A stretch of 64,000 nt of DNA from Thiobacillus sp. Lineage in GTDB: Bacteria; Pseudomonadota; Gammaproteobacteria; Burkholderiales; Thiobacillaceae. The stretch is taken from assembly GCA_030692355.1 (NCBI GenBank), contig JAUYCF010000094.1, forward strand, positions 62,001 through 126,000. Direction: 5' to 3'. The notes under the pieces were generated by a model, which did no database searches, was not told the DNA's origin, and worked only from the letters and a program-made list of their open reading frames with translations. A program made the position numbers and the translations under genes. Shown piece after piece: positions 14,266 to 52,199 of the stretch. Position 1 is the stretch's first letter, and each line of letters opens with the position of its first letter.

Positions 14266-14411
14266 TAGGGGCTAGGAGCTAGGGGCTAGGAGCTAGGATT
14301 TAGGAACTAGGGGAGGTGCGGCCAATGGCCGCGTGCATAAAAAAGCGCGAAGCACAACCCCCCCTAGCCCCTAGCCCCTAGCCCCTAAATCCTAGCCCCT
14401 AGCCCCTCCCC
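14266..14411. repeat. Heptad-repeat hairpin between glgB and glgA
   Basis: Seven consecutive 7-bp units (TAGGGGC, TAGGAGC and variants) run from 14266 to 14314. About eight inverted units (CCCCTAG type) run from 14358 to 14411. Between them is a mini-hairpin GCGGCC-AAT-GGCCGC and a second small stem. In the direction of transcription (minus) the purine-rich arm comes first. The element fills the whole gap between the glgB stop and the glgA start. It has no spacers and is not a CRISPR. Confidence 0.85.
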
Positions 14412-16619
14412 TCAAACTGGTTTCAAAAAGATCGCCCCCAGCGGCGGCAGCGTCACTTCGACGGAATAGTCGTATCCCATCCACGGCAGGTTCTGGGGGT
14501 AAAGCGGCTGGCCGTTGCCGAGGTTGCTGCCGCCGTAATATGTCGAGTCGGTATTCAACACCTCGCACCAGGCCGCCGCCGACGGCACGCCGATGCGGTA
14601 CGCGCGGCGCGGCACCGGAGTGAAGTTGAACAGCGCCACCATCTGCGCGGCGTCGTCCCGCCCCTGGCGCACGAAGCTCAGCACCGACTGGTCGGCGTCG
14701 TGGCAGTCGATCCAGCGAAACCCGCGCGGCTCGAAGTCGAACTCATACAGCGCGGCCTCGTTGCGGTAGAGGTGGTTGAGGTCGCGCAGCAGCGTGCGGA
14801 CGCCGTCATGCGCGGGAAAGTCGAGCAGCATCCAGTCGAGCTGGCCGGATTCCTTCCACTCGTTCCACTGGCCGAACTCGCTGCCCATGAACAACAGCTT
14901 CTTGCCCGGATGCGCATAGTGCCATGCATAGAACAGGCGCAGGTTGGCGAAGCGCTGCCAGGTGTCGCCCGGCATCTTGTCGAGCAGGCTTCTCTTCCCG
15001 TGCACCACCTCGTCGTGCGACAGCGGCAGCACGAAATTTTCGGTCCACGCATACATCTGGCTGAAGGTCAGCTGGTTGTGCTGGTACTTGCGGTAGATCG
15101 GTTCCTTCTCGATGTAATCGAGGCTGTCGTTCATCCAGCCCATGTTCCACTTCATCGAAAAGCCCAGCCCGCCGAGCTCGACCGGGCGCGACACCGCCGG
15201 CCACGCGGTCGATTCCTCGGCGATGGTCAGCACGCCGGGAAAGCGGCCGTGCACCTCGGTGTTCATTTCGCGCAGGAAATGAACCGCCTCGATATTCTCG
15301 CGCCCGCCGTACTGGTTGGGCACCCATTCGCCCGGCTTGCGCGAGTAGTCGAGGTAGAGCATCGAGGCGACAGCGTCGACGCGCAGTCCGTCGATGTGGA
15401 ACTCGTCCAGCCAGTACAGCGCATTGGCGACCAGGAAGTTGCGCACCTCGTTGCGGCCGAAATCGAAGACCAGCGTGCCCCATTCCTGGTGCTCGCCGCG
15501 GCGCGGGTCGGCATGCTCATACACCGGCTCGCCGGTGAAGCGCGCCAGCGCCCAGTCGTCCTTGGGGAAATGCGCCGGCACCCAGTCGAGCAGCACGCCG
15601 ATGTTCACCTGGTGGCAGGCGTCGACAAAGGCGCGAAAATCGTCCGGCGAACCGAAGCGCGCCGTCGGCGCGTAATAGCCCGACACCTGGTAGCCCCACG
15701 AGGCGTCGAGCGGATGCTCGGCCACCGGCATCAGCTCGATATGGGTGTAGCCGAGATCCTGCACGTAGGGGATCAGTTCGGCGACAAGTTCGTCCCAGGT
15801 ATAGAAACTGCCGTCATCGTGGCGCCGCCAGGAGCCGGGATGCAGCTCGTAGATGCTGATCGGCCGATGCTGCCAGTCGAAATGCGCGCGGGCCGCCATC
15901 CAGTCGCCGTCGCCCCAGGCGTGCGCGGTTTCCCCGGGCACGCGGCTGGTGGTCTCGGGGCGCAGAAACATCTGCCGCGCATACGGGTCGGTCTTTCTCA
16001 CCAGCTGGCCGTGCCTGCCGAGAATTTCGTATTTGTAGGCCGGGCCGGCGGCGAGGCCGGGGATGAACAATTCCCACATGCCCGAGGTGCCGCGGCAGCG
16101 CATCGGATGACGGCGACCGTCCCACGCGTTGAAGTCGCCGACCACGCTGACGCGCTGCACCGCGGGCGCCCACACGGCAAACAGGCAGCCCTCGACGCCG
16201 TCGACGGTCTTCAGGCGCGCACCGAGCACTTTCCAGGCTTCGAAATGGCGCCCCTCGCCAAGCAGGTAGAGGTCCATTTCGCCCAGCTGCGGATCGAAGC
16301 TGTAGGGGCATTGCATGGTGTGCCAGCCGCCCGCGCCCTTGTCCTGCCAGCGAAGCACCGGATGCGGCTCGACCGCCGCGCCCGCCGGCAGCAGCCGCTC
16401 GAAACAGTCGGTACCGGCCACCCGCATCATGCGGCCGCCGGCCACCTCGACCGCCTCGGCGGCGGGAAGAAAAACGCGAATCAGGGTGCTGCCGTCGGGC
16501 TGGGGATGCACACCCAGCACCTCGAACGGATCGTGATGCGTGCCGGTCTGCACGCGCAGGATCGGCGGAGCGATCTCCGGCAGGCTGGCGCCGAGCGGGG
16601 CTTGTGGGGGCACCTTCAT
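14412..16619 (-). CDS. glgB: 1,4-alpha-glucan branching enzyme (GH13)
   Basis: GlgB forms alpha-1,6 branches in glycogen. The 735-residue protein has two N-terminal beta-sandwich (CBM48-like) parts ([14 protein letters not shown], then [21 protein letters not shown]), a GH13 barrel with the nucleophile region [16 protein letters not shown] and acid/base [14 protein letters not shown], and a C-terminal sandwich. ATG 16619 overlaps the malQ stop as ATGA and is preferred over an in-frame ATG at 16640. The operon also carries a GH57 enzyme, so the GH13 protein is the branching enzyme here. Confidence 0.95.
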
Positions 16620-17968
16620 GGTTTGGGGTTTGTCTCGCATCGGTGGGCTTTCTGTAATTGTTCCAGCAAATTTGATGCCAGATTAGGCGGCAGCGCATCC
16701 CAGGCAAACCGCCAGGTCCAGTTGCCGTTGTCGGTTCCCGGCGTGTTCATGCGCGCCTCGGAACCCAGCCGCAGCACATCCTGCAGCGGCAGAATCGCCA
16801 GCGCGGCACGGCTTTCCAGCACCGTGTCGATCATCGCATCCGGCACCGCATCGGGATCGTCGACGTTTAGTTGCCGCATCACCTCCTGGCGTGCCTCGCC
16901 GGGCAGCGCGCGCCACCAGCCCAGCGTGGTGTCGTTGTCGTGGGTGCCGGTGTAATAGACGGTGTCGGGGTGCACGTTTTCGGGCTTGTGCGGGTTGTCG
17001 GCATGGTGGTCGAACGCGAATTGCAGCACAGCCATGCCGGGCAAGCCGAACCGGTGGCGCAGCGCGGTGACCTCCGGGGTGATGATGCCGAGATCCTCGG
17101 CCACCAACGGCAACTCGCCCATTTCGTCGGCAATTGCCTGCAGCAGCGCCGCACCCGGCGCCTCGACCCACTCGCCGTGGATGGCGGTGGGTTCATGGGC
17201 GGGGATCACCCAGGCTGCCGCCAGCCCGCGGAAGTGATCGATGCGCACCAGGTCGAACCACTCGAAGTGCGCGGCGAGCCGCGCCCGCCACCAGGCAAAG
17301 CCGTCGGCCTGCATCGCCGCCCAGTTGTAATGCGGGTTGCCCCAGCGCTGCCCGGTTTCGGAAAAGTAGTCCGGCGGCACCCCGGTCACCACCGTGGGAT
17401 GCCCCGCGTCATCCAGCAGGAACAGGCCGCGTTGCGCCCACACGTCGGCACTGTCGTGGGCGACGAAAATCGGCATGTCGCCGAACAGCTGAATGCCGTG
17501 CGCCGCTGCGTGCGCGTGAATACGCCGCCATTGCATGGCCGCGCCGTACTGTTCGACCCTCACCGCTTCCAGCTTGTCGGCGTGGGCAGCGTCGAACCCG
17601 GCCAGCGTCTGCGCATCGCGGTCGCGCAGCGCTGCCGGCCAGTCGGTCCAGGATGCGCCGCCCTGCTCCGCCTTGATCACCATGAAGCGCGCAAAATCCT
17701 CCAGCCAGTGCGCCTGCCGGCGGCGCCAGTCGGCAAAGCCTTGCATGTCGACCGGCGCAGAGGGAAACAGCCCGGGATTGACCGCGAAGGCCGACGCGCA
17801 CTGATAGGGCGACAAGCCGGTGAGCGGAATCCCCAGCGGCAGCATCTGCCACACGCCGAAGCCCGCCGCCTGCAGGAAATCCAGCCAGCGCCCGGCATCG
17901 GCCAGGGTGCCGGAAGGCAGCGAGGTCGGATGCAGCAGCAGGCCGGCGCGATGGGTGTCGAAGTTCAT
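16616..17968 (-). CDS. malQ: 4-alpha-glucanotransferase (amylomaltase, GH77)
   Basis: MalQ transfers maltodextrin segments between chains, recycling short oligosaccharides left by the phosphorylase. The 450-residue product begins [20 protein letters not shown], and shows [20 protein letters not shown], the nucleophile region VRIDHFRGL, the acid/base [12 protein letters not shown], and [14 protein letters not shown]. These are standard GH77 landmarks. ATG 17968 is used; a longer reading would include the upstream inverted repeat. The gene lies between GH57 and glgB and overlaps glgB by four bases. Confidence 0.95.
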
Positions 17969-17988
17969 TCGGGGAATCCAAAGGCGGT

Positions 17989-18115
17989 CCGCGAAGGACG
18001 CGAAGAAGCGCGAAGTAAACCCGGACAGGGACATGTGCTTTCGCACCGGTTACTGCGCAGGCATAAACGAACACAAACTTTTGCTTTTCTTCGCGTCTCT
18101 TCGCGTCCTTCGCGG
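17989..18115. repeat. Inverted repeat of CGCGAAG units between GH57 and malQ
   Basis: The arms at 17989-18015 and 18089-18115 (27 bp each) are complementary at 25 of 27 positions. Each arm contains three CGCGAAG units spaced 9-10 bp apart. The 73-bp loop shows no gene. In the transcribed (minus) sense the purine-rich arm comes first, as in the heptad elements. A stable RNA hairpin in mid-operon is expected. Confidence 0.8.
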
Positions 18116-18137
18116 ATAAAGGTTTTTGCCAGGTTCA

Positions 18138-19862
18138 TCAGGCGTTCCTGCGCATGGTGCCGGCGTTTTCCGCCCAGCCGCCGCCGGCGGACAGCGGCAC
18201 GTCGAGCAGCGCCGGCGGCGCCACGCCGAGCAGGCGGTACAGCTCGCGCAGCTGGGTGCGGTACAGCTGCTCGAAGTCGCTGACGCTGCCCGAGGGGTTG
18301 TAGTCGCCGAACCACCAGAACCAGTCCGAGCCTTCGCACACGGCGAGCTGACGGGTGGCCAGCGCCAGCTGGTCGGCGTTCAGCCTGCCCGCGGCCGCCA
18401 CGCTGTCGTAAGCCTGTTTGGCGGCGACCAGGTAGTCCCAGCCGCGGTTCTTGTCGTCCGATCCGATCCAGGTCGAGAAGCTGCCGTAGACCCAGCTGCC
18501 GGCCGCCAGCCGCTTCATCGGCTTGGCGGGCGCGTGCGCGGCCTGCTCGGCGAAGGTGCTGACCTTGAGGGTGGGATGGCTGGACAGCGTCGCATAGAGC
18601 GCATCCAGAAAATAGTGGCCATTTTCGGGGTAGTACTCCCAGGCGTTTTCGCCATCGAGGATGACCGAGACCACATGGTGGTTGGCGTCCTTGCCAAAAA
18701 AAGCAGCGATGTTTTCCAGATGCTGGACGAAGTCGGCCACCGCGTCTCTGGAGTGCCAGTCGCTGTACTTGAAGCCGATCAGGTCCGACAGGCCGTCGTC
18801 GCGGAAAAACACCCGCACCTTGAAGCCGTCGATATGCGCCGGCGAAAAAAGTGATTGCCTGGTTTGCACCGCTTCCTCCGGGCAGCCCGACTTGGCGCAG
18901 CTGTTGCGCCATACGCCCTCGCCCGAGGCAGTCCAGGCAAATTCCATTTCGTCGAGCTGGGCCAGCGCGTCCTCGCTCACCCCGCCTTCCGACAGCCACA
19001 CGCCCGCCGGCTTGATGCCGAAGTAGCGCTCGAACACCTCGACGCCATGCTGCAGATGCCAGCGCGCGCGCTCCGCGCCACCCGGGTAGGTGGGCGCTTC
19101 GGGGACGGGAACGTCGGGCAGCGCGTCGCGCAGGTTGGCAAAGTCGTTCAAGAGCGGCACGATGGGGTGGCCGTAGGGCGTCATCGACAGCTCGACCTGG
19201 CCGCGCTCGGCGAGCGCGCGGTAACGCGGAATCAGCCCGGCCATGCAGTGCTGCATCAGATGCAGCAGCTCGTGGCGGTCGGCGGCGGAAAAGCCCTTTT
19301 CCTGCGCCATCAGCCGCTGCGCCAGCGGCAGCTGGCGAAGCGAATTTCCCAGCCAGGCGAGGTGATACCAGGTCAAGAGATCAAGAAAATACTGCTCGGA
19401 CAGGTAGCCCAGGTGCGCTTGCAGGTCGGCACTGCCTTCGGCGCCGGCATCACCCGTGGCGTCGATCATGCGCAGCAGGCGATGAAACGCGGGATACGGA
19501 TGAATCATGCGCGGGGCATGGCAGCGCTGGCAATCCTGAACGATGCGCAGGCGGCTGGGGACATCCGACGGAATGCGCTCGACGCCGGACAGCAGATTCA
19601 GCATGTGGTCCTGGGTGGGCTTGCCGTGCTTTAACAGCACATCGAGCTGCTGCGCGTAGTCATCCAGCTGCTCCAGCAGCACCGGCGCGAAATTCACCAC
19701 CGCGCGCATCGAGGGGTAGCGCTCCAGATGCGCGGCCATGTCGCTGTAGTCCTTGATGCCGTGGAGGTACACCCAGGGCAGGTGGTAGGCGCCCTTGAGG
19801 CCTTCGCGGTAATACGGCTGGTGCATGTGCCAGCACAGCACCACGTTCAACTTAGCCGTCAT
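18138..19862 (-). CDS. Glycoside hydrolase family 57 protein
   Basis: The 574-residue enzyme is predicted to act on alpha-glucans. GH57 motifs appear in order: HMHQPYY near the N-terminus, GQVELSMTPYGHPI, GVWLSEGGVSE with the presumed nucleophile Glu, and VILDGENAWEYY with the presumed acid Asp. Family members include alpha-amylases, amylopullulanases and branching enzymes, and the exact activity cannot be read. Since a GH13 branching enzyme is encoded nearby, hydrolysis or debranching of stored glucan is more likely. No signal peptide is seen, so it acts in the cytoplasm. Its start overlaps the end of glgC by 11 bp. Confidence 0.88.
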   Translation of the reverse strand: MTAKLNVVLCWHMHQPYYREGLKGAYHLPWVYLHGIKDYSDMAAHLERYPSMRAVVNFAPVLLEQLDDYAQQLDVLLKHGKPTQDHMLNLLSGVERIPSDVPSRLRIVQDCQRCHAPRMIHPYPAFHRLLRMIDATGDAGAEGSADLQAHLGYLSEQYFLDLLTWYHLAWLGNSLRQLPLAQRLMAQEKGFSAADRHELLHLMQHCMAGLIPRYRALAERGQVELSMTPYGHPIVPLLNDFANLRDALPDVPVPEAPTYPGGAERARWHLQHGVEVFERYFGIKPAGVWLSEGGVSEDALAQLDEMEFAWTASGEGVWRNSCAKSGCPEEAVQTRQSLFSPAHIDGFKVRVFFRDDGLSDLIGFKYSDWHSRDAVADFVQHLENIAAFFGKDANHHVVSVILDGENAWEYYPENGHYFLDALYATLSSHPTLKVSTFAEQAAHAPAKPMKRLAAGSWVYGSFSTWIGSDDKNRGWDYLVAAKQAYDSVAAAGRLNADQLALATRQLAVCEGSDWFWWFGDYNPSGSVSDFEQLYRTQLRELYRLLGVAPPALLDVPLSAGGGWAENAGTMRRNA

Positions 19863-21171
19863 AGTCGTTCTGCAGTCTCGCGTACAGGTTCTGCCCGAGC
19901 ATCGCCGGGGTCACCAGGGTGATGCCTTCCCTGGTCACGTGGAAGCGCTTGGCGTCCTCGACCGGATCCTCGCCGATGATCGTGCCGTCTTCGATCACGC
20001 ACCCCTTGTCGATGATGGCGCGGCTGATGCGGCAATGGCTGCCGATGCTGACCTTGGGCAGGATCACGCTGTCCTTGATCAGGCTGTAGTTTTCCACCGT
20101 GGTGGCGAAGAACACCACCGAGCGCTTGACCCGCGCCCCCGACAGGATGCAGCCGCCGGCGATCAGCGAGTCGATCGCCTCGCCGCGCCGGCCTTCGTCG
20201 TCGAGGATGAATTTGGCGGGCGGATATTGCGGCTGGTAGGTCCAGATCGGCCAGTCGCGGTTGTACAGGTTGAGCTCGGGTTCGACCGAGCACAGTTCCA
20301 TATTGGTCTGCCAGTAGGAATACAGCGTCCCGACGTCACGCCAGTAGGCCGGCAGGCCTTCCTTGTTGCGGAAGGGGAAGGCCATCGCACGGGCATCGCC
20401 GATATTTTCGGGAATGATGTTCTTGCCGAAGTCGTGAGCCGAAAGGGGATTGCCGGCATCTGCGATCAGTGTCTTGTAGAGGAAATCCTTGGAGAAAATA
20501 TAAATCCCCATCGACACCAGCGTGGTGCCGGGCTTGCCGGGAATACTGTCGGGATGCGCGGGTTTTTCGGTGAAGCGGGTGATGCGCATGTCCTCATCGA
20601 CCGACATCACGCCGAACCCGCTCGCCTCGGACACCGGCACCTCGATGCTGCCGACGGTGAAGTCCGCGCCGGTCTGCACGTGATAGAGCAGCATCTCCGA
20701 GTAATCCATGGTGTAGACGTGGTCGCCGCCCAGCACCAGCACATACTCCGGGTGGTGGCGCTGCATGATGTCGATGTTCTGGAACAGCGCATCGGCGGTG
20801 CCCTGGTACCACTCCTTCTTGTTGGTGCGCTGCTGTGCCGGCAGGATCTCCACGAACTCGCCGATCTCGGCGCGCATGAAGCCCCAGGCGCGCTGCAGGT
20901 GGCGGATCAGCGAATGCGACTTGTACTGGGTGAGCACGCCGATACGGCGGATGCCCGAGTTGACGCAGTTCGACAGCGTGAAGTCGATGATGCGGTACTT
21001 GCCGCCGATCGGCACCGCCGGCTTGGCGCGCCAGGCAGTCAGGTCCTTCAGCCGCGACCCTTCGCCGCCCGCCAGCACCAGCGCCAGCGTCCGGCGCGTG
21101 AGGTCGGTCGCGACCTTGGGCTCGGTGTAATAGCGATAAAGCCGTGTCTGTTCGTCCTTGGAAATGGTCAT
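19852..21171 (-). CDS. glgC: Glucose-1-phosphate adenylyltransferase
   Basis: GlgC makes ADP-glucose from glucose-1-phosphate and ATP, the controlled step of glycogen synthesis. The 439-residue protein has [17 protein letters not shown] with the nucleotide-binding loop, [42 protein letters not shown] and a left-handed beta-helix C-terminus of hexapeptide repeats. The ATG at 21171 has AGGAG upstream; longer in-frame reading would run into glk. Allosteric control by glycolytic intermediates is usual in the family. Confidence 0.96.
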
Positions 21172-21223
21172 GCCCGCTCCTGGTTGCGCTGGTTTGGAAT
21201 GAAATGCGATTGGATACGATAGC

Positions 21224-22192
21224 TCAAGGCATGGCAAACCCGGTCGCGATTGCGCCCTGGACGCCCAGCCGGCTGTTGGTGACCAGAAGAACCGGGGTGC
21301 GCTCGACCACGCCGCGCATGCGACCCTTGTCGCCGGCCGCGGCCATGAAGCGCGGCGACTGCATGCGTGCCTGCAGATGGACGGCAATGCCGCCCGCGAC
21401 ATACAGTCCGCCGCGCGGCTGGAGCAGCAGCGCCACATTGCCGACCCACGATCCATACAGATCGACGAACAGGTCGAGCGCCGCCGCAGCCACCGCATCG
21501 CCGGCTGCGGCGCGCGCGACCAGCGCGGCGCCGTCTACCGGCTCGTCGGGCGGCGCGGCGTTTTTTTCGGCGCAGCAGAAACGATACAGGTCGTTCATCG
21601 CCAGTCCCGACACCGCACGCTCCCACGACACGTGGCCATAGGCGGCGCGCAGGCGCTCCAGCAGACGCAGCTGCAGCGCATTGGCCGGCGCGAAGTCGAC
21701 ATGTCCGCCTTCGCTGGCGTAATGCTGGTAGCGGCCGCCGGCGTCTGCCAGCATGAAAGCCAGCCCCAGCCCGGTGCCGGCGCCGGTGATGGCGCGTACC
21801 CCACCCGCCTCGATCGGCTGCGGATTGAGCGCGACCACGTCGGCGGCAGCCAGCGTCGCCACGCCGGCGGCGGCGGCCTGGAAATCGTTGATGAAGCGCA
21901 CGCGGGCAATGCCAAGCGAAGCCGCCATGTCCGCGGCATCGAGCGTCCAGTCCAGATTGGTGAGCCTGGCGTGCTGGGCGTGCAAGGGTCCCGGCAGCGC
22001 CAGCAGCAGGCGATCCGGCGCCGTTGTCAGCGTCGAATCGGCAATGAACTGGCGGATCAGATCGTCCGCCGTCGCGAACGCCGCGCTCGCATACGTCTGC
22101 TCGAAACGCAGCTGCGGCATCCCGCCCGTCTCGCCCGTCACCCAGGCCAGCCAGCTCTTGGTTCCGCCAATGTCGCCTGCGATCAACTCCAT
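21224..22192 (-). CDS. glk: Glucokinase
   Basis: This Glk-type kinase phosphorylates glucose with ATP. The 322-residue protein starts MELIAGDIGGTKSWLAW, the phosphate-binding motif of bacterial glucokinases. It then shows LALPGPLH, NDFQAAAAGV with the catalytic Asp, ITGAGTGLGLAF and the SEGGHVDFAP region. It lies 2 bp after pgi and 52 bp before glgC. It could salvage free glucose produced by MalQ and GH57. Confidence 0.93.
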   Translation of the reverse strand: MELIAGDIGGTKSWLAWVTGETGGMPQLRFEQTYASAAFATADDLIRQFIADSTLTTAPDRLLLALPGPLHAQHARLTNLDWTLDAADMAASLGIARVRFINDFQAAAAGVATLAAADVVALNPQPIEAGGVRAITGAGTGLGLAFMLADAGGRYQHYASEGGHVDFAPANALQLRLLERLRAAYGHVSWERAVSGLAMNDLYRFCCAEKNAAPPDEPVDGAALVARAAAGDAVAAAALDLFVDLYGSWVGNVALLLQPRGGLYVAGGIAVHLQARMQSPRFMAAAGDKGRMRGVVERTPVLLVTNSRLGVQGAIATGFAMP

Positions 22193-22194
22193 GG

Positions 22195-24122: not shown

Positions 24123-24180
24123 TGGTGCCGGGAGGGGGACTCGAACCCCCACACTGTTACCAGCGGCGGATTTTGAATCC
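24123..24180. repeat. 58-bp copy of the 3' part of tRNA-Leu (attachment-site scar)
   Basis: The 58 bp are identical to 24958-25015, in the same orientation. They cover tRNA-Leu from the anticodon stem to the 3' CCA. The copy lacks the 5' half of the tRNA. This is the pattern left when a tyrosine-integrase element inserts in a tRNA gene and restores its 3' end. No integrase gene lies between the two copies. Confidence 0.85.
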
Positions 24181-25131: not shown

Positions 25132-25139
25132 CGCGCCCC

Positions 25140-27320: not shown

Positions 27321-27638
27321 ATGATTTCTCTCGCCCACGCACAAGCCGCCGCGCCGGCCGCCCCCGGTTTTACACAGTTTCTGCCGCTCATCATCATCTT
27401 CATCCTGTTCTGGTTCATGCTCATCCGCCCGCAGATGAAGCGCGCCAAGGAACAGAAAAAAATGCTGTCGGAGCTGACCAAAGGCGATGAAGTCATCACT
27501 GCCAGCGGCCAGGTCGGCAAGATCGTCAAGATCGGCGAACAGTTCATTTCGCTGGAAATCGCCGACGGCGTGATCACCCACGTACAGAAGCAGTCGATCC
27601 AGACTCTGCTGCCCAAGGGCACGATCAAAGGCATTTAG
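27321..27638 (+). CDS. yajC: Sec translocase accessory subunit YajC
   Basis: YajC associates with SecDF at the inner membrane. The 105-residue protein has a short N-terminus, one transmembrane helix (FLPLIIIFILFWFMLIRP) and the conserved QMKRAKEQKKMLSELTKGDEV region. GGAG lies upstream of the ATG. Its TAG stop forms the first three bases of the heptad-repeat element that fills the gap to secD. Confidence 0.95.
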   Translation: MISLAHAQAAAPAAPGFTQFLPLIIIFILFWFMLIRPQMKRAKEQKKMLSELTKGDEVITASGQVGKIVKIGEQFISLEIADGVITHVQKQSIQTLLPKGTIKGI

Positions 27639-27756
27639 GGATTAGGATTTAGGGGCTAGGAGCTTGGGAATGAGCGGCTGTGCCGCGCATTTTCTAACCA
27701 CTAGCCCCCAGCTCCTACCCCTAACTCCTAGTCCCTAATTCCTAGCTCCTAGAAAA
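27636..27756. repeat. Heptad-repeat hairpin between yajC and secD
   Basis: Five 7-bp units of the TAGGNNN type start at the yajC stop codon (27636-27670). A mini-hairpin GCGGC-TGT-GCCGC (27674-27686) follows. Nine inverted units (CTAGCCC and TAGCTCC types) then run from 27694 to 27756, ending one base before the secD ATG. The units are imperfect but keep 7-bp phase. It has the same architecture and almost the same unit as the glgB/glgA element 13 kb away. Confidence 0.85.
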
Positions 27757-30519: not shown

Positions 30520-30573
30520 AGTCGAGAGTGGAGAGCATAACCGCCCCGCTCTCGACTCTCGACTCTCGACTCT
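30520..30573. repeat. Heptad-repeat hairpin between secF and dedA
   Basis: The left arm at 30520-30536 (units AGTCGAG, AGTGGAG) pairs with the first 17 bases of the right arm with one mismatch. The right arm runs from 30548 to 30573 and holds three and a half CGACTCT units. The loop is 11 nt. It fills most of the gap between the two genes. The unit differs from the TAGGGGC elements, while period and orientation are the same. Confidence 0.85.
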
Positions 30574-43706: not shown

Positions 43707-43745
43707 TTTTGGCCTTCATTCCATTCCCCTTAACTGGAACGCATC

Positions 43746-44774: not shown

Positions 44775-44857
44775 GTGAAGAGTGTCTGTGCCCGGCGCCG
44801 GGCTGCCGCGCAAACCGGCCGGCTGTTGGACGCATTAAAGCAGGATGGTTCGCGCTT

Positions 44858-45925
44858 TCAGTCGACCTCTTCCACCGGGACGCGCGCGGCCAGGGCGCAC
44901 AGCAGTTCATAGCTGGTGGTGCCGGCGGCCGCGGCCACCGCATCCACCGGCAGACCCTCCCCCCACAGCACCACCGGAGTGCCGACGCCGGCACTGGCGC
45001 ACTCGCTCAAGTCGACACACAGCATGTCCATCGACACCCGTCCCAGGGTGCGACTGGCGCGGCCGCTGACCAGCACCGGGGTGCCGGTCAGCGCATGGCG
45101 CGGATAGCCGTCCGCATAACCGCACGCCACCACCCCCACCTGCATCGCCCGTTCTGCGCGAAACAGCTGGCCGTAGCCCACCCCTTCACCCGCTTGCAGG
45201 GTCTGCACGCTGATGATCTCCGACTGCAGGGTCATCGCCGGGCGCAGTCCCAGTTCGGCTGCAGACACGTCGGCAAACGGCGATGCGCCATACAGCATCA
45301 GGCCCGGTCGCACCCACGCGCCGAGGGTATCCGGGTAGCGCAACAGCGCCGCCGAATTGGCGCTGCTCCAGGGCAGGCTGTGTCCGGCCACTTGGTGCAG
45401 AAACGGCTGCAACTGCCAGTCGACCCCCGCGGCCTCGTCGGCCTGGGCAAAGTGGGTCATCAGGGTAATGCCGGCCACTCCGGGCAGGCTTTGCGTTCGC
45501 GCGACGATGGCGGCGTGGTCGGCGAGCGGAAGCCCCAGCCGATGCATGCCGCTGTCGAACTTGAGAAAGACCTGAATGGGGCGTGCAGGCGGCCGCTGCT
45601 GCAGCCAGTCGAGATGCACGGGATGATGCAGCACCGGCCACAGATCCAGTTCGGCGCAGGTGGCGATCTCGTCCGCACTGAAAACTCCTTCCAGCAGCAG
45701 GATCGGTTTCTCGACCCCCATCAGGCGCAGGTTTGCGGCCTCTTCCAGCGTCAGCACGGCGAAGCCGTCCGCTGCCGCCAAAGCGCGCAGCGCGCGTGAC
45801 AGTCCGTGACCGTAGGCGTTGGCCTTGACCACCGCAAACACGCATGCCGTCTGCGCGTGGCGGCGCGCCACGCGCAGGTTGTGCGCCATCGCATCAATGG
45901 AAATGCGCGCTTTGATTGGGCGCAT
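44858..45925 (-). CDS. alr: Alanine racemase
   Basis: Alr makes D-alanine for peptidoglycan. The 355-residue PLP enzyme starts RPIKARISIDAMAHNLRVAR, binds PLP through Lys34 in VVKANAYGHG, and has the second catalytic Tyr in EGVGYGQLFRAE and the CVDLSE segment. It is the last gene after dnaB, separated by 5 bp, as in many proteobacteria. Confidence 0.95.
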   Translation of the reverse strand: MRPIKARISIDAMAHNLRVARRHAQTACVFAVVKANAYGHGLSRALRALAAADGFAVLTLEEAANLRLMGVEKPILLLEGVFSADEIATCAELDLWPVLHHPVHLDWLQQRPPARPIQVFLKFDSGMHRLGLPLADHAAIVARTQSLPGVAGITLMTHFAQADEAAGVDWQLQPFLHQVAGHSLPWSSANSAALLRYPDTLGAWVRPGLMLYGASPFADVSAAELGLRPAMTLQSEIISVQTLQAGEGVGYGQLFRAERAMQVGVVACGYADGYPRHALTGTPVLVSGRASRTLGRVSMDMLCVDLSECASAGVGTPVVLWGEGLPVDAVAAAAGTTSYELLCALAARVPVEEVD

Positions 45926-45930
45926 CTGGA

Positions 45931-47322
45931 TTAGTAGGAACCCGGCTGCGCCAGTGTTTCGAAGCGCGTGTATTCGCCGACAAAAGCCAGCCGCACCGTG
46001 CCGATGGGGCCGTTACGCTGCTTGCTGATGATGATTTCGGCGGTGCCCTTGTCCTGGGTGTCGGGGTTGTAGACCTCGTCGCGATAGATGAACAGGATGA
46101 CGTCGGCATCCTGTTCGATAGCGCCCGATTCGCGCAGGTCGGACATCACCGGCCGCTTGTTGGGGCGCTGTTCGAGGCTGCGGTTCAGCTGCGACAGCGC
46201 GACCACCGGCACGTGCAGCTCTTTCGCCAGGCCTTTGAGGGCGCGCGAGATTTCCGAGATTTCGGTGGCGCGGTTTTCGCCCGAACTGCTGGCAGACATC
46301 AGCTGGATGTAGTCGATGATGATCAGGCCGAGCTTGCCGCACTGACGCTGCAGGCGCCGGGCGCGGGCGCGCAGTTCCAGCACATTGAGCCCCGGTGTTT
46401 CGTCGATGAAGATGGGGGCGTCGTTGAGCTTGCCGAGGGCGTAGGTGAGGCGCTGCCAGTCGTCCTCGCCCAGCTTGCCGGTACGCAGGCGATGCTGGTC
46501 GAGCTTGCCGACCGAGCCGATCATCCGCATCACCAGCTGCTGACCGCCCATCTCCATGGAAAAGACCGCCACCGGCAAGCCGGTATCGAGCGCGACGTTC
46601 TCGCCGATGTTGATCGAGAATGCGGTCTTGCCCATCGACGGGCGCCCGGCGACGATGATCAGGTCGCCCGGCTGGAAACCCGAGGTTTTCTGGTCGAGGT
46701 CGTGAAATCCGGTAGGCACGCCGGTGATGCCGGAATCGTTGTCGCGGTGATACAGCTCGTCGATACGCTCGACCACTTCTTTCAAAAGCGGCTTGATTTC
46801 AGTGAAGCCCGCCTGGCCACGGCTGCCCGATTCGGCAATCTCGAACACCTTGGCCTCGGCCTCGTCGAGCAACTGCGAGGCGCTGCGCCCGGCCGGAGCA
46901 TACGCGGTGTCGGCAATCCCGGTCGCCACCTCGGCCAGACGGCGCATCACCGAACGCTCGCGCACAATTTCGGCATAGCGGCGGATGTTGGCGGCCGACG
47001 GTGTATTGCTCGCCAGCGCGACGATGTAGGCAAGCCCGCCCACGCTCTCGAGCTGACCCAGCGATTGCAGCGCCTCGGTCACCGTCACCGCGTCCGCCGG
47101 GCGGTTTTCCGCGATCTGCCGCACGATCGCGCGCAGGATCTGGCGATGATCCTGGCGGTAGAAATCGCTTTCCGACACCACATCGCCAATACGATCCCAT
47201 GCGCCGTTGTCGAGCAGCAGGCCGCCCAACACTGCCTGCTCGGCTTCCAGGGAATGCGGCGGCAGGCGCATTTGCGCCAGCTGGGGGTCGGAAGTCGGAG
47301 TAAACGAGTGGATAGCGGCCAT
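45931..47322 (-). CDS. dnaB: Replicative DNA helicase DnaB
   Basis: DnaB unwinds the replication fork as a hexamer. The 463-residue protein has an N-terminal domain (LPPHSLEAEQAVLGGLLLDN), a linker helix region, and a RecA-like domain with GRPSMGKTAF (Walker A), the Walker B-type LIIIDYIQLM, and SRALKGLAKELHVPVVALSQ. A 137-bp gap upstream holds a consensus DnaA box and the terminator of the ribosomal-protein operon, so dnaB probably has its own promoter. Confidence 0.97.
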   Translation of the reverse strand: MAAIHSFTPTSDPQLAQMRLPPHSLEAEQAVLGGLLLDNGAWDRIGDVVSESDFYRQDHRQILRAIVRQIAENRPADAVTVTEALQSLGQLESVGGLAYIVALASNTPSAANIRRYAEIVRERSVMRRLAEVATGIADTAYAPAGRSASQLLDEAEAKVFEIAESGSRGQAGFTEIKPLLKEVVERIDELYHRDNDSGITGVPTGFHDLDQKTSGFQPGDLIIVAGRPSMGKTAFSINIGENVALDTGLPVAVFSMEMGGQQLVMRMIGSVGKLDQHRLRTGKLGEDDWQRLTYALGKLNDAPIFIDETPGLNVLELRARARRLQRQCGKLGLIIIDYIQLMSASSSGENRATEISEISRALKGLAKELHVPVVALSQLNRSLEQRPNKRPVMSDLRESGAIEQDADVILFIYRDEVYNPDTQDKGTAEIIISKQRNGPIGTVRLAFVGEYTRFETLAQPGSY

Positions 47323-47367
47323 GGCCGGATTCTAGTCTTCCGCCCCCCCCACACAAAGGGATAAGCC

Positions 47368-47376
47368 TGTGAATAA
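47368..47376 (-). promoter_or_regulatory. Consensus DnaA box upstream of dnaB
   Basis: The minus strand reads TTATTCACA, which matches TTWTNCACA at every position. It lies about 46 bp before the dnaB ATG. A single box could let DnaA influence dnaB transcription. It is not an origin, since no cluster of boxes or AT-rich unwinding region is present. Confidence 0.4.
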
Positions 47377-47412
47377 AGCATGTACAGCCGGGAATATCCT
47401 GAAGGCACACGT

Positions 47413-47442
47413 AAAAAAAGGGAGCCGAGGCCCCCCCTTTTT
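47413..47442 (-). terminator. Intrinsic terminator after rplI
   Basis: On the minus strand an A/G-rich arm (AAAAAGGGGGG) and the arm CCCTTTTTTT enclose CCTCGGCT. The stem passes directly into a run of T. It lies 18 bp after the rplI stop and would separate the ribosomal operon from dnaB. Confidence 0.75.
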
Positions 47443-47459
47443 CGACCTGCCTGGCGGCG

Positions 47460-47909
47460 TTACTGCTGGCCGGTCACCACCACCGTGATGCTGGCGGTAA
47501 TGTCACCGTGCAGCGCCAGCACCACCGGGTATTCGCCGAGGGTCTTGAACGGACCTTCGGGCAAACGGATCTCCGACTTGGCCACTTCATGGCCTTGCGC
47601 TTTCAGCGCATCGGAAATATCGGCATTGGTGATGGAACCGAACAGGCGGCCATCGACGCCGGCTTTCTGGCTGATGGTCACGCTCGTGCCTTCGAGCTTT
47701 TCGGCACGGCGCTGGGCATCGGCCAGTTTTTCTGCGGCAACGCGCTCCAGCTCGGCCTTCTGCGCGGCGAATGCTTCCATATTGGCTTGCGTGGCGCGAC
47801 GCGCACGGCCGGTCGGAATCAGATAGTTGCGGGCGTAGCCGTCTTTTACCTTGACCACGTCACCCAGGTCGCCCAGTTTGCCGATTTTGTCGATCAGAAT
47901 CACTTGCAT
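47460..47909 (-). CDS. rplI: 50S ribosomal protein L9
   Basis: L9 binds 23S rRNA domain V and spans the ribosome surface. The 149-residue protein begins [20 protein letters not shown] with the L9 signature [13 protein letters not shown], a long central helix ([20 protein letters not shown]), and the C-terminal domain with [20 protein letters not shown] lies just upstream of the ATG. It ends the rpsF-priB-rpsR-rplI operon. Confidence 0.97.
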
Positions 47910-47919
47910 GGTCGTCTCC

Positions 47920-48210
47920 TCAATGCAGGTCGGTGTAAGGCATCAGCGCCAGGAAGCGCGCACGCTTGATCGCGGTGCCCAGCTGACGCTGGTAGTGCGC
48001 CTTGGTGCCCGTGATGCGCGCCGGAATGATGCGGCCATTTTCGGCAATGAATTCCTTCAGCACCTCGATGTCCTTGAAATCGATCTCAACCACTTTTTCG
48101 GCGGTGAAGCGGCAGAACTTGCGACGCTTGAAGAGACCACGATTGCCGCTATCGCGGCCGCCTTTTTTGGCGAACTTGCCGCCGGTTTTACCACCCATGG
48201 GACGTGCCAT
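47920..48210 (-). CDS. rpsR: 30S ribosomal protein S18
   Basis: S18 pairs with S6 on the 30S platform. The 96-residue protein has a basic N-terminal extension ([18 protein letters not shown]) before the usual [21 protein letters not shown] core, ending [11 protein letters not shown]. The N-terminal part is longer than in E. coli S18 (75 residues) but similar extensions are common in betaproteobacteria. It lies 3 bp after priB. Confidence 0.97.
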
Positions 48211-48213
48211 GAT

Positions 48214-48504
48214 TCATTCCTTTTCGATTCGATTCAATATCAGGATCAGCTGACGGCCTTTTACGCTGCGCCGGTTCAACGCACCTTCCAGTTTCACCTG
48301 CGTTCCAGTATTCAGCTGCGCCAACTGACTGGCAAGCGTTCCGCTCGCCTGTACCGTCAACTCGCATTCCACCTGCCGGGCTTGCGTGGCCACTGTCTGA
48401 CTGCTGCGGTGCAGAACCACCGCTTCGGCAATCGGCACACCCGCCGGACTGTAACGCACAGGGTCGACCTGGATGAGCGCTCCGCTGATGACCAACCTAT
48501 TCAC
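48214..48504 (-). CDS. priB: Primosomal replication protein N
   Basis: PriB is an OB-fold protein that helps PriA restart stalled forks. The 96-residue product begins NRLVISGALIQVDPVRYSPAG and shows the OB pattern with VECELTVQASG and KLEGALNRRSVKGRQLILI. It starts with GTG at 48504, as no ATG fits. It lies between rpsF and rpsR, the typical proteobacterial place. Confidence 0.93.
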   Translation of the reverse strand: MNRLVISGALIQVDPVRYSPAGVPIAEAVVLHRSSQTVATQARQVECELTVQASGTLASQLAQLNTGTQVKLEGALNRRSVKGRQLILILNRIEKE

Positions 48505-48521
48505 TCATTCAGACCACGCTC

Positions 48522-48950
48522 TCAGGCAACGGCTGGCTGTTCGGCTGCCACGTCCGGCTTGGCGGTTTCAGCCATGGCGGTTTCAGCCTTGGCGGTTTCT
48601 GCCTTGGCGCTGTCCAGGATGTCGCGCGACTTTTCTTCCTTCATCATCGGCGAAGCCGTGGTCACGGCGGCGGCGTGCTTGATGGTCAGATGGCGCAGCA
48701 CGGCATCGTTGAACTTGAAGCCATGCTCGAGTTCGTCCAGCGTTTCCTGGTCGCACTCGATGTTCATCAGCACGTAGTGGGCCTTGTGGACTTTCTGGAT
48801 CGGGTAGGCCATCTGGCGGCGGCCCCAGTCTTCCAAACGGTGGACCGTGCCGCCGCGCGTGGTGATATTGCTGCGATAGCGTTCGATCATGGCGGGCACC
48901 TGCTCGCTCTGATCGGGATGGACGATAAATACGATTTCGTAATGCCGCAT
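48522..48950 (-). CDS. rpsF: 30S ribosomal protein S6 with repeated C-terminal tail
   Basis: S6 binds S18 and 16S rRNA. The 142-residue protein has the normal S6 domain ([19 protein letters not shown], then [20 protein letters not shown]). Residues from about 108 form a tail with AETAK repeats encoded by a 15-bp tandem repeat (48560-48604). AGGAAA precedes the ATG. In E. coli the S6 tail receives glutamates, and an extended tail of this kind may be a regulatory or purely slippage-driven feature. Confidence 0.96.
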
Positions 48951-48970
48951 CGAGTTTCCTTTCGGTTCAG

Positions 48971-48994
48971 CCCCCCGCTGCGGTGCGGTGGGGC
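48971..48994 (-). promoter_or_regulatory. Candidate S6:S18-binding leader hairpin
   Basis: About 20 bases upstream of the rpsF ATG the minus strand can form a CCCC/GGGG-closed hairpin that includes ACCG elements. S6:S18 leader motifs with a bulged CCG are known upstream of rpsF in many bacteria. The match here is by eye and the fold is ambiguous. Confidence 0.3.
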
Positions 48995-49032
48995 AAGGTT
49001 AAGTAGCCTTGGGCAATGACATAGCCAAGGTC

Positions 49033-49060
49033 AAAAAACAATCCCCGGCAAACCGGGGAC
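49033..49060 (-). terminator. Intrinsic terminator of the decarboxylase gene
   Basis: On the minus strand the 7-bp stem TCCCCGG/CCGGGGA with loop TTTG is followed by TTGTTTTTTG. It lies 59 bp after the decarboxylase stop and upstream of the rpsF leader. Confidence 0.8.
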
Positions 49061-49118
49061 TGCGAATAATACGCTTTTTTCCTGACGAATCAAGCCTGTC
49101 GCCGCGCCCGGCTGCCGT

Positions 49119-51362
49119 TCACATCACGCAGTCGACGTAATACGTGGCCTTGCCGTCGACCATATCCTCGACCAACCCATGCACGTCGGTCTCGAAGCCG
49201 GGGAATTTCACGTTGAAATCGCGGGTGAACTGCAGGTAGCGCACGATGGTGCTGTTGAAGCGCTCGCCCGGAATCAGCAAGGGAATACCCGGCGGATAAG
49301 GCGTCACCAGCATGGCGGTGATGCGGCCTTCGAGCTGGTCGATCTCGACCCGCTCGATCTCGCGGTGCGCCATTTTGGCAAAGGCATCGGCCGGCTTCAT
49401 CGCCGGCGCCATTTCCGACAGGTACATCTCGGTGGTCAGGCGCGCCACGTCGTTGGCCTTGTAGATGGTGTGGATCTGGTCGCACAGGTCCTTCAGCCCG
49501 GTTTTCTCGTAGCGCGAGTGTTTTTCGATGAATTCGGGCAGCACGCGCCACAGCGGCTGGTTCTCGTCGTAATCGGCCTTGAACTGCTGAAGCGCGGTCA
49601 CCAGCGTATTCCAGCGGCCTTTGGTGATACCGATGGTGAACATGATGAAGAAGGAATACAGCCCGGTTTTCTCGACGATGACGCCGTGCTCGGCCAGGTA
49701 TTTGGTGACGATCGCCGCCGGGATGCCCCAGTCGGCAAACGCGCCGTCCATGTCCAGGCCGGGCGTAATGACGGTGGCCTTGATCGGGTCGAGCAGGTTG
49801 AAGCCGGGCGCGATATTGCCGAACTCGTGCCAGCGCTCGCCGGCCTTCAACATCCAGTCCTCGCGATCACCCACGCCTTCGTCGGCCAGCTTCTGCGGCC
49901 CCCACACCTTGAACCACCAGGAATCGCCGAATTCCGCGTCGACCTTGCGCATGGCACGGCGGAAATCCAGCGCTTCCTTGATCGACTCCTCGACCAGCGC
50001 GGGGCCGCCGGGCGGCTCCATCATCGCCGCCGCCACATCGCACGAGGCGATGATGGCGTACTGCGGCGAAGTCGAGGTGTGCATCAGGTAGGCTTCGTTG
50101 AAGCGGGTGAAGTCGAGCTTGCGCGTCTCCGAGTCCTGCACCAGGATCTGCGAAGCCTGCGAGAGGCCTGCCAGCAGCTTGTGGGTCGACTGGGTGGCGA
50201 ACACCAGCGCATCCTTGGCGCGCGGGCGGTCCTTGCCGATGGCGTGCATGCCGCGATAGAAGTCGTGGAAGGTCGCATGCGGCAGCCAGGCTTCGTCGAA
50301 ATGCAGGGTGTCGATGTAGTCGCCCAGCAACTCCTTGATCATGTCGACGTTGTAGAGGATGCCATCGTACGTCGACTGGGTGATGGTGAGGATGCGCGGC
50401 TTGCGCTTCACATCCTTGGCGAACGGATGCGCGGCGATTTTCTTCTGGATGTTCTCGGGACGGAACTCATCCAGCGGAATCGGCCCGATGATGCCGTAAT
50501 GGTTGCGCGTCGGCGTCAGGAAGATCGGGATCGCACCGCACATGATGATCGCGTGCAGGATGGATTTATGACAGTTTCGGTCGACCACGACGATGTCGCC
50601 CGGCGCGACCGTGGCGTGCCACACCATTTTGTTCGAAGACGACGTGCCATTGGTGACGAAAAACAGGTGGTCGCAGTTGAAAATGCGCGCCGCGTTGCGC
50701 TCCGACGCCCCCACCGGACCGGTGTGATCGAGCAGTTGCCCAAGTTCGTCCACCGCGTTGCAGACGTCGGCGCGCAGCAGGTTCTCGCCGAAAAACTGGT
50801 GGAACATCTGGCCGATCGGCGACTTCAGGAACGCCACCCCACCGGAGTGGCCGGGGCAGTGCCAGGAATACGAGCCGTCCGCCGCGTAATGGGTGAGCGC
50901 ACGAAAAAACGGCGGCACCAGCGATTCGAGATAGGCACGCGCTTCTCGCCCGATATATCGGGCGAGAAACTCCGGCGTGTCTTCCAGCATGTGGATGAAG
51001 CCGTTCAGCTCACGCAGGATATCGTTCGGAATATGGCGTGCGGTACGGGTTTCACCATGCAGGAAAATCGGGATCTCGGCATTGCGGAAGCGTACTTCCT
51101 CGACGAAGCTGCGCAGCTTCTGCAGCGCCTTGCTTGTATCTTCATCGCTGCCCGCGAGTTCCTCGTCGTCGATCGACAGTACGAACGCCGAGGCGCGCGC
51201 CTGCTGCTGGGCGAACGAGGTCAGGTCGCCATAATTGGTGACGCCGAGCACTTCCATGCCTTCCTTCTCGATGGCGTCGGCAAGTGTGCGGATGCCGAGC
51301 CCCGAGGCGTTTTCGGAGCGGAAATCTTCGTCAATGATGACAACGGGAAAGCGGAAGCGCAT
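49119..51362 (-). CDS. Orn/Lys/Arg decarboxylase, class I PLP-dependent
   Basis: The 747-residue enzyme decarboxylates a basic amino acid to a polyamine or diamine. It has an N-terminal receiver-like wing domain (FPVVIIDEDFRSENASGLGI), a fold-type-I core with WHCPGHSGGVAFLKSP, NGTSSSNKMV and the PLP lysine in ATQSTHKLLAG, and a C-terminal domain. Length and order match the AdiA/CadA/SpeF group. The substrate (arginine, lysine or ornithine) is not certain. GGAG precedes the ATG and a 179-bp upstream region carries two dyads. Confidence 0.9.
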   Translation of the reverse strand: MRFRFPVVIIDEDFRSENASGLGIRTLADAIEKEGMEVLGVTNYGDLTSFAQQQARASAFVLSIDDEELAGSDEDTSKALQKLRSFVEEVRFRNAEIPIFLHGETRTARHIPNDILRELNGFIHMLEDTPEFLARYIGREARAYLESLVPPFFRALTHYAADGSYSWHCPGHSGGVAFLKSPIGQMFHQFFGENLLRADVCNAVDELGQLLDHTGPVGASERNAARIFNCDHLFFVTNGTSSSNKMVWHATVAPGDIVVVDRNCHKSILHAIIMCGAIPIFLTPTRNHYGIIGPIPLDEFRPENIQKKIAAHPFAKDVKRKPRILTITQSTYDGILYNVDMIKELLGDYIDTLHFDEAWLPHATFHDFYRGMHAIGKDRPRAKDALVFATQSTHKLLAGLSQASQILVQDSETRKLDFTRFNEAYLMHTSTSPQYAIIASCDVAAAMMEPPGGPALVEESIKEALDFRRAMRKVDAEFGDSWWFKVWGPQKLADEGVGDREDWMLKAGERWHEFGNIAPGFNLLDPIKATVITPGLDMDGAFADWGIPAAIVTKYLAEHGVIVEKTGLYSFFIMFTIGITKGRWNTLVTALQQFKADYDENQPLWRVLPEFIEKHSRYEKTGLKDLCDQIHTIYKANDVARLTTEMYLSEMAPAMKPADAFAKMAHREIERVEIDQLEGRITAMLVTPYPPGIPLLIPGERFNSTIVRYLQFTRDFNVKFPGFETDVHGLVEDMVDGKATYYVDCVM

Positions 51363-51422
51363 GGCCTGCTCCAGAGGAAAGCCTTGGCCCGGACGTCATC
51401 GATTCGCATGCACTTAACCGGC

Positions 51423-51446
51423 ATTTTGTTCCAAAAGGAACAAAAT
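51423..51446. promoter_or_regulatory. Perfect 10-bp dyad upstream of the decarboxylase gene
   Basis: ATTTTGTTCC (51423-51432) and GGAACAAAAT (51437-51446) form a perfect inverted repeat with a 4-bp AAAA loop. It lies 60 bp before the ATG. A minus-strand TATAAT (51518-51513) would place the dyad in the 5' leader. It may be an operator or an RNA switch element. Confidence 0.5.
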
Positions 51447-51541
51447 CCTCGGCAATCATCACGCGAATTGATGAGACATCCGGGCTGGAGGCGGACGAAT
51501 TAAAAGAAGCGGATTATACGAATCCCGCGTGTCCCGCGGGA

Positions 51542-52108
51542 TTAAGTTTTAGGCAGCGTCACGCCGACCTGGCCCTGATATTTGCCGCCGCGATCGCGGT
51601 ACGACACCTCGCACACCTCGTCGGATTCGAGGAAGAGCATTTGCGCCACGCCCTCGTTGGCGTAAATGCGTGCGGGCAGCGGGGTCGTGTTGGAAAACTC
51701 CAGCGTCACGTGGCCTTCCCACTCGGGCTCCAGCGGCGTCACGTTGACGATGATGCCGCAGCGCGCATACGTGCTTTTGCCGAGACAGATCGTCAGCACA
51801 CTGCGCGGAATGCGGAAATATTCCACCGTGCGCGCCAGTGCGAACGAGTTGGGCGGGATGATGCAGGAATCGCCCTTGACCTCGACAAAGGAGTTCGGAT
51901 CGAACGCCTTGGGGTCGACAATCGTCGTATTGATGTTGGTGAACAGCTTGAACTCGCTGGCGCAGCGCACGTCGTAGCCGTAGCTCGACGTGCCGTACGA
52001 CACGATGGGGCGGCCATCAACCTGCTTGACCTGCCCCGGTTCGAACGGTTCGATCATGCCATGCTCAACCGCCATGCGGCGGATCCATTTGTCGGATTTG
52101 ATAGACAT
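51542..52108 (-). CDS. dcd: dCTP deaminase
   Basis: Dcd converts dCTP to dUTP, supplying dTMP synthesis. The 188-residue protein begins [20 protein letters not shown], and has [12 protein letters not shown], the catalytic segment [24 protein letters not shown] and [29 protein letters not shown] 52108 is chosen; longer readings would translate the repeat element upstream. That repeat fills the gap to mrp. Confidence 0.95.
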
Positions 52109-52199
52109 ATCAGGGGTCAGGGGGCAGGGGGCAGGGGGCAGGGTTGGCGGCGTTGGCCGCCCACTCCCTGATCCCTGAATCCCGATCCCCGGTTCTCCA
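52109..52199. repeat. Heptad-repeat hairpin between mrp and dcd
   Basis: Five 7-bp units of CAGGGGG type lie at 52111-52145. A mini-hairpin GGCGGC-GTTG-GCCGCC lies at 52146-52161. Five units of TCCCTGA type lie at 52165-52199, ending exactly at the mrp stop codon. In the transcribed (minus) sense the purine-rich arm comes first. The arms pair only imperfectly, but the 7-bp phase and central hairpin match the other elements. Confidence 0.8.

Follow-up and report, generated by a model that had tools for sequence, protein, structure and literature searches.

Heptamer hairpins at co-directional gene junctions in Thiobacillus and the apparent replacement of their units between sister species

Can an intergenic element keep its place and shape when nearly all of its letters are exchanged? 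This question is raised by a 64,000-nucleotide stretch of Thiobacillus sp. DNA (contig JAUYCF010000094.1, positions 62,001 to 126,000; hereafter, the window). A preliminary description of the window pointed to four gaps between co-directional genes (glgB/glgA, yajC/secD, secF/dedA, and mrp/dcd) with 7-bp units, inverted units, and, in three cases, a central GC mini-hairpin, and proposed that they share one architecture with different units and are not simple copies of each other. In this study, we analyzed these gaps together with the 3.27-Mb draft genome that contains the window (the own genome, G000), whose closest named SecD matches are from Thiobacillus metagenome-assembled genomes (most at 83–89% best-segment identity), and with related genomes. 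The feature is real and systematic, and it is partly known already; a function is predicted only. The main new result is that sister species, with flanks 86–97% identical, appear to have the unit replaced in place on both arms with the layout kept.

Repeat hairpins in the window

The repeats, inverted units, and mini-hairpins were confirmed in all four gaps. On the sense strand, the order in each gap is stop codon, purine arm, loop, pyrimidine arm, and start codon, and the units across the four gaps are TAGGRNN, GTCGAGA, and CAGGGRN. In glgB/glgA (minus strand), the purine arm of TAGGRNN units directly follows the glgB stop codon (14361..14411), the central GC mini-hairpin lies at 14318..14332, with a second small mini-hairpin seen by eye at about 14346–14356, and the pyrimidine arm (14266..14313; TAGGGGC on the plus strand) stands just ahead of the glgA start, which is at 14257 in the list of open reading frames (ORFs) or, as predicted by our purpose-written gene caller, at 14242. 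In yajC/secD (plus strand), the purine arm (27636..27669) overlaps the yajC stop codon TAG (27636–27638), with which its first unit begins. The central GC mini-hairpin (27674..27686) and the pyrimidine arm (27699..27753) follow, the latter ending 4 nt ahead of the secD ATG (27758), and no Shine-Dalgarno match was found. secF/dedA (plus strand) is the exception among the four as to the central mini-hairpin; its short purine arm is of the GTCGAGA type (30520..30535), and its pyrimidine arm of CTCTCGA units (30548..30573) lies 5 nt ahead of the dedA ATG (30579). In mrp/dcd (minus strand), CAGGGAT/CGGGATT units form the purine arm after the mrp stop codon (52165..52191), followed by the central GC mini-hairpin (52146..52161) and the pyrimidine arm ahead of the dcd start (52110..52143; CAGGGGG on the plus strand).

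The gene names were verified with NCBIfam: GlgB, GlgA, YajC, SecD, SecF, dCTP deaminase, and the Mrp/ApbC family scored above the curated cut-offs, and the dedA model scored under them for the DedA-type protein. Rfam families at gathering score in the window were tRNA only, with no match at the hairpins. A 15-bp repeat of 3.5 copies (48558–48609) lies inside a called ORF on the minus strand (48522–48950).

Period, polarity, and placement in the genus

A 7-bp period dominates in the own genome. Within 425 kb, 20 segments scoring at least 12 were found at lag 7, compared with 0–6 at the other lags from 4 to 13 and 15 at the multiple, lag 14; one Markov shuffle of the same 425 kb gave none at lag 7. 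In larger samples, the own genome had 26 such segments at lag 7 and 0–11 at the other lags from 5 to 13, and G010, a same-genus genome with more varied units, had 7 at lag 7 and 1–9 at the others; the pooled lag-7 excess of G010 is weak (z 1.5). A unit-agnostic scan for the best segment at each lag with its inverted partner gave 19 inverted pairs of period 7 in own gaps, two of period 8, one of period 10, and none of the other periods from 4 to 12, while stretches from sister species gave 17 of period 7 and none of any other. The margin is smaller in other named Betaproteobacteria (7 at period 7 versus 3, 3, and 1 at other periods). No pooled lag-7 excess was found in 267 co-directional Betaproteobacteria gaps outside the Thiobacillus-like loci, where single gaps still qualify (L018, L027, L048, L076, and L083). 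The sampled stretches are not random, as several contigs were picked for holding matches and the sister stretches were picked as counterparts of own array regions, and all statistical tests count gaps as independent.

Matches to the pattern YAGGRNNYAGGRNNYAGGR number 246 in the whole own genome, whereas its reversed control has 9. At least one match is present in 22 of the 25 genomes of the genus (own included), some of which have high reversed controls (219 versus 59 in G013 and 106 versus 38 in G001). Outside the family, 5 of 16 genomes from other families in the order have the pattern, four with one match and one with 13, a genome in which the reversed control also gives 13. All 54 automatically called inverted pairs, some of them orthologous to each other, are purine-first (19/19 in the own genome, 7/7 in G010, 4/4 in Thiobacillus-like named loci, 7/7 in other Betaproteobacteria, and 17/17 in sister stretches); 52 lie in co-directional gaps and two in convergent gaps. 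An inverted partner is usual, being present for 37 of 43 period-7 gap arrays in four of these sets and for 17 of 17 in the sister stretches. The data show many sites, a 7-bp phase, and non-random polarity, rather than the few sites, random orientation, or missing phase that the preliminary description had set against its own proposal.

One part of that proposal, an orientation bias relative to transcription, is not supported. A purine...pyrimidine inverted repeat reads identically from either strand, so that purine-first order "on both strands" is automatic, and the same polarity is found in two convergent pairs and, by eye, in one divergent gap. The informative question is purine-first versus pyrimidine-first, not orientation to transcription. 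The divergent case, a 97-bp gap (L263, G000:C96), has a purine-first GAGAGTC hairpin with TATAAT-like boxes on both sides (by eye), and the sole convergent-gap hairpin of the own sample (L089:16159-16367) is followed by a further palindromic repeat. Very long arrays are present in G010 (C1:2276105-2276450), with 11 overlapping TAGGGGC pattern matches and 19 overlapping CAGGAGG matches on the opposite strand. In the own element L102:17072-17321 (G000:C18), an insert of about 150 bp interrupts the purine arm. This insert has inverted ends (GTGTAGTG...CACTACAC), contains an inner palindrome, and is absent in G061.

Placement between co-directional genes is strongly preferred. Among gaps of 40 bp or more in the own and G010 stretches, arrays, called as lag-7 segments or YAGGR arms, occupy 37 of the 406 co-directional, 1 of the 84 convergent, and 1 of the 117 divergent ones (Fisher p 0.012 versus convergent and 0.0009 versus divergent), with units that vary among gaps, as the preliminary description proposed. 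The own part of this sample is biased toward contigs with matches, but co-directional, convergent, and divergent gaps were all taken from these same contigs. The 40-bp limit omits one co-directional array row (3 bp), and a G010 row with an AT-rich repeat (L152), probably another kind of repeat, is still counted. Pfam assignments of 20 proteins place the arrays beside accB-accC-prmA, gcvT-gcvH-gcvP subunits, guaB-guaA, an Hsp70 gene, tkt-gap-pgk-pyk, rpe-HAD-trpE, ilvC-psd, and a purD-type gene. Several of these gene families are partners in well-known operons. In G010, the neighboring genes are conserved at 12 of 15 array gaps, compared with 44 of 65 gaps shorter than 40 bp and 20 of 38 co-directional gaps of 40–250 bp without an array.

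Arm geometry was analyzed in the 31 of 38 co-directional array gaps in which both arms fit the YAGGR pattern. In 30 of these pairs, no more than 15 nt separate the stop codon from the purine arm (median 5 nt), whereas the distance from the pyrimidine arm to the start codon is this short in 17 (median 11 nt). Anchoring is thus tighter at the stop than at the start (Wilcoxon p 0.001); within 50 nt, the counts are 30 and 28. A Shine-Dalgarno match of at least 4 precedes 13 of 38 genes after arrays, compared with 164 of 320 genes that follow other co-directional gaps (60 bp or longer). None of the 16 genes with a pyrimidine arm at most 12 nt from the start has such a match, compared with 9 of the other 15.

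Among the 30 elements taken into the loop analysis, 28 have a GC mini-hairpin, nine of which share the motif ATGNGCGGS, and four have a T-run after it. Those four loops would fit intrinsic terminators or attenuators, a reading that is very improbable indeed and that we rejected, since 26 loops have no T-run, convergent gaps are nearly free of arrays, and the downstream operon genes must be read. The shared mini-hairpin would also suit a mobile palindrome family resembling repetitive extragenic palindromes and bacterial interspersed mosaic elements (REP/BIME), with the arrays as insertions moved by Y1 transposases of the REP-associated tyrosine transposase (RAYT) type. The own genome has eight Y1_Tnp matches (L236–L243), seven of them above the cut-off. 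However, none of these eight loci (2.1–3.4 kb each) holds an array, units differ among elements, and turnover occurs in place at comparable orthologous gaps. RAYT-mobilized palindromes were therefore rejected as a very unlikely origin.

Different units in the same gap

The comparison of relatives suggested in the preliminary description showed that the unit of a gap is replaced and the layout is kept. yajC/secD has the same layout in many lineages (named loci and 30 loci of the genus), with units that include, by eye, GAAGGGG, GGCGTGA, GTGAACG, GTCGAGA, and AGTGAGG. Elsewhere the gap contains a GC hairpin instead or, in some species, neither heptamers nor hairpin (by eye). In the sister species G056, yajC, secD, and the gene upstream are 96.8%, 96.4%, and 94.4% identical to their counterparts in the own genome, and the element between yajC and secD is wholly different. 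Among the gaps that could be mapped to three sisters, the median similarity of array gaps to the own genome is 0.47 in G056 (n = 10), 0.51 in G061 (n = 7), and 0.50 in G055 (n = 8), with mean flank identities of 94.6%, 93.2%, and 90.2%, respectively. The corresponding medians for other co-directional gaps are 0.93 (n = 18), 0.87 (n = 10), and 0.72 (n = 5). The difference is significant for G056 (p 2e-4) and G061 (p 1e-4) and non-significant for G055 (p 0.52, 8 versus 5 gaps). Convergent and divergent gaps vary too, with medians of 0.40 for four gaps in G055 and 0.71 for seven in G056.

The architecture persists in these divergent gaps. In all 25 orthologous sister gaps, the first 35 nt are purine-richer than the last 45, compared with 12 of 19 control comparisons, and lag 7 exceeds all other lags from 4 to 12 in 22 of the 25, compared with 0 of 19 controls; one of the 25 gaps has an inserted gene and no array. 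Of 12 array gaps in the own genome, 8 are arrays in G010 as well, compared with 0 of 70 other gaps (p 1.4e-8), and at least one of the four mismatches contains a hairpin of other heptamers (by eye).

Units also differ in flavor from genome to genome. The first letter is T in 189 of 212 own units and C in 69 of 91 G010 units. Forward plus reverse counts of TAGG-only and CAGG-only matches are 186/13 in the own genome, 0/200 in G055, 18/270 in G061, 4/58 in G056, and 115/11 in G019, with mixed genomes at 120/51 (G064), 50/55 (G051), and 81/66 (G069); unit flavor is graded, not two-state. The two arms of an element agree in flavor, with a Spearman correlation of 0.73 over the 31 YAGGR elements of two species mixed (0.78, p 0.014 in G010; 0.32, p 0.15 in the own genome). 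For four of eight orthologous elements, the match between the own and G010 loops is the best of 30. In one of these, guaB/guaA, the mini-hairpin is identical, and all 11 own units start with T and all 10 G010 units with C; gcvH/gcvP is similar, with nearly every unit's first letter changed on both arms. The change is partial in one of the two remaining loop-matched elements, and there is hardly any in the other. Point mutation unit by unit is an improbable route to the clear cases. Replacement by array-to-array conversion, or by slippage with template switching from arm to arm, would be more likely.

G-quadruplexes (G4) have been proposed for heptamers in Xanthomonas. Some of the units, such as TAGGGGC and CAGGGGT, yield repeated tracts of at least three G. 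Many others have GG only (TAGGATT, TAGGAGC) or no GG at all (GTCGAGA, GTGAACG) in an unchanged layout (by eye), and the probability that the elements act as G-quadruplexes is close to negligible.

The layout of the hairpin, judged from sequence comparison, seems to be kept while its letters change. A further reading, possible though somewhat less likely than not, is that of an RNA or DNA element free of any set sequence. Period 7, inverted arms, and purine-first order would be all that selection or a dedicated process preserves at fixed operon junctions. A genome-wide process would meanwhile rewrite the units on both arms, at times sparing the loop, which would give many species their own flavor within a few per cent of divergence.

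Possible roles at cistron junctions and known systems

Anatomy, placement, polarity, and a conserved position with unit turnover are direct observations. As to what the elements do, we lean, with less than firm confidence, toward cistron-junction hairpins inside operons. Tandem 7-bp units form a purine arm a few nucleotides past the upstream stop, a loop usually with a GC mini-hairpin, and a pyrimidine arm often near the next start. In a polycistronic mRNA, the purine arm would be transcribed first and would pair with the pyrimidine-rich arm as that arm emerges. The pairing would fold out the untranslated spacer, hide the C-rich stretch from Rho and nucleases, act as a barrier protecting the 3' end of the upstream cistron, and bring the stop and start codons close. 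Since a tandem unit can pair with inverted copies of itself whatever the register, the unit could change with the hairpin kept.

Predicted folding is consistent with such hairpins. The mean z against dinucleotide shuffles is −5.3 over 34 array gaps, and in 24 of the 30 yajC/secD loci of the genus (near-duplicates and gaps shorter than 60 bp removed), native arms pair at −32.7 kcal/mol, compared with −27.9 kcal/mol for arms permuted among these loci (p 5e-5). In Betaproteobacteria outside the Thiobacillus-like set, yajC/secD has a mean z of −2.25 (n = 54), compared with −1.17 for their other co-directional gaps (n = 257; p 4e-4). The yajC/secD junction of these bacteria is unusually structured even without heptamers, and several Azonexus and Dechloromonas loci have a GC hairpin followed by a T-run.

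Very stable folds and the tighter anchoring at stop codons would also suit a differential-decay barrier alone, which would block 3' exonucleases and raise upstream over downstream cistron mRNA, as at malE-malF, with no role in translation or against Rho. In Xanthomonas, transcript starts and ends are reported to be more frequent at G4-capable than at G4-incapable repeats (Rehm et al., PMC4692102), which fits such a barrier. Yet it does not by itself explain the purine-first order or the near-absence of arrays at convergent gaps, although a barrier would be of use there as well. This restricted role is unlikely.

Several results weigh against the junction role. The convergent gaps of other Betaproteobacteria are structured too (mean z −2.8, n = 33), and in 6 of the 24 yajC/secD loci, native pairing is worse than the swapped-arm mean. 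Selection on sense RNA would favor G.U pairs, and no excess was found in the stems, counted without near-duplicates, short gaps, and stemless gaps (85 G.U versus 114 A.C mismatches; p 0.047 in the opposite direction). This test may lack power, since 39 control palindromes in other co-directional gaps likewise have no G.U excess (27 G.U, 30 A.C). No unit-by-unit matching of arms was found within a genome (0.787 native versus 0.800 reshuffled and 0.793 swapped, 31 elements), and strict RNA covariation between arms was thus found neither at unit level nor as a G.U excess. The Rho argument leaves the purine-first order in the two convergent gaps and the divergent gap L263 unexplained. In addition, 7 of 67 detected arms lie within called coding sequences, a lone pyrimidine array stands 18 nt after a stop (L104:12349; the start of the next gene is perhaps wrong), and the four GTCGAGA-type matches of the own genome comprise one co-directional gap (secF/dedA), one divergent gap, and two sites inside called genes. 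The latter two (L262 and L264; G000:C38 and C116) are pyrimidine arrays, and the L264 array is followed by an A-run like intergenic arrays.

Because wobble bias and unit-by-unit arm matching are both lacking, a purely mutational origin remains a strong rival, which we regard as possible but somewhat doubtful. Slippage in 7-bp steps, linked to replication or R-loops, and template switching between arms would make and homogenize the inverted copy, and operon gaps would be hot spots or the places of least harm, with no function needed. The flavor agreement between the arms of one element, the common polarity in convergent and divergent gaps, and the arrays inside genes all suit this origin. Among the long simple repeats of many prokaryotes, heptamers are the most frequent, and slippage governed by the polymerase footprint has been put forward (Mrazek et al. 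2007, as cited in PMC4679880 and PMC4692102). On the other hand, slippage alone gives single arrays, whereas an inverted partner is the rule here; the strong co-directional bias and the filling of the same gaps with another unit between sisters with flanks 86–97% identical also speak against it.

If this picture is correct, operons contain conserved features that are invisible to ordinary alignment, since sister species share the position, period, and polarity of an element and differ in nearly all of its letters. The junctions accB-accC, gcvT-gcvH, guaB-guaA, tkt-gap-pgk, and yajC-secD belong to well-known operons in a genus with a cultivable species, and both function and unit rewriting would thus be directly testable.

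Among known systems, cyanobacterial short tandemly repeated repetitive (STRR) heptamers share tandem 7-bp units. REP/BIME elements with RAYT are also dispersed extragenic palindromes with GC hairpins, and Y1 transposase genes are present in the own genome; Thiobacillus arrays differ in having no fixed palindrome sequence, and no link to transposase loci was found. Stem-loops at operon cistron junctions are known from malE-malF and galE. The E-hairpin at the galE/galT junction stops 3'-5' decay after Rho termination (PMC9239205), and protective structures in operons are described (PMC5927463). They have no tandem heptamers, and their function was measured, whereas that of the Thiobacillus elements is predicted; the galE E-hairpin is also short, and the galE mRNA ends about 130 nt past the stop rather than a few nucleotides. 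TAACTGA heptamers lie ahead of start codons in Beggiatoaceae, and the downstream genes often have no Shine-Dalgarno sequence (MacGregor 2015, PMC4679880). Both traits recall the Thiobacillus arrays; however, TAACTGA is one fixed unit in direct repeats without a hairpin arm, and the Thiobacillus units are not TAACTGA and their arms are inverted.

The GGGAATC heptamers (GGGNATC repeats) of Xanthomonas are another close system, and the suggestion that the hairpin form is undescribed is not supported, since paired heptamers of this polarity are reported there (Rehm et al. 2015, PMC4692102). These repeats are mostly intergenic and form convergent inverted pairs (70 among 186 repeat sites in Xcc and 75 among 183 in Xac). 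The G-rich strand lies just past stop codons and the C-rich strand just ahead of start codons, mostly between aligned genes, with 16% in convergent and 7–8% in divergent gaps. Gene context is the same in 83% between Xcc and Xac, and Nostoc has only few paired repeats. The function of paired heptamers was left open there, a question that the Thiobacillus junctions would make testable. Within a partial coverage of the literature, no earlier description in Thiobacillus or Betaproteobacteria was found beyond PMC4692102 and PMC4679880, nor any of a unit-independent architecture with in-place unit replacement on both arms between sister species. The Xanthomonas and Thiobacillus elements are alike in their dominant 7-bp period, purine-first inverted pairs, and placement within 50 nt of stop and start codons. 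They differ in that the Xanthomonas unit is GGGNATC, whereas the Thiobacillus units (TAGGRNN, CAGGRNN, GTCGAGA, GGCGTGA, and others) vary by gap and sister species on both arms. Furthermore, the Thiobacillus arrays are almost only co-directional, nearly all of their loops hold a GC mini-hairpin, and many of their units are unfit for a three-tetrad G4.

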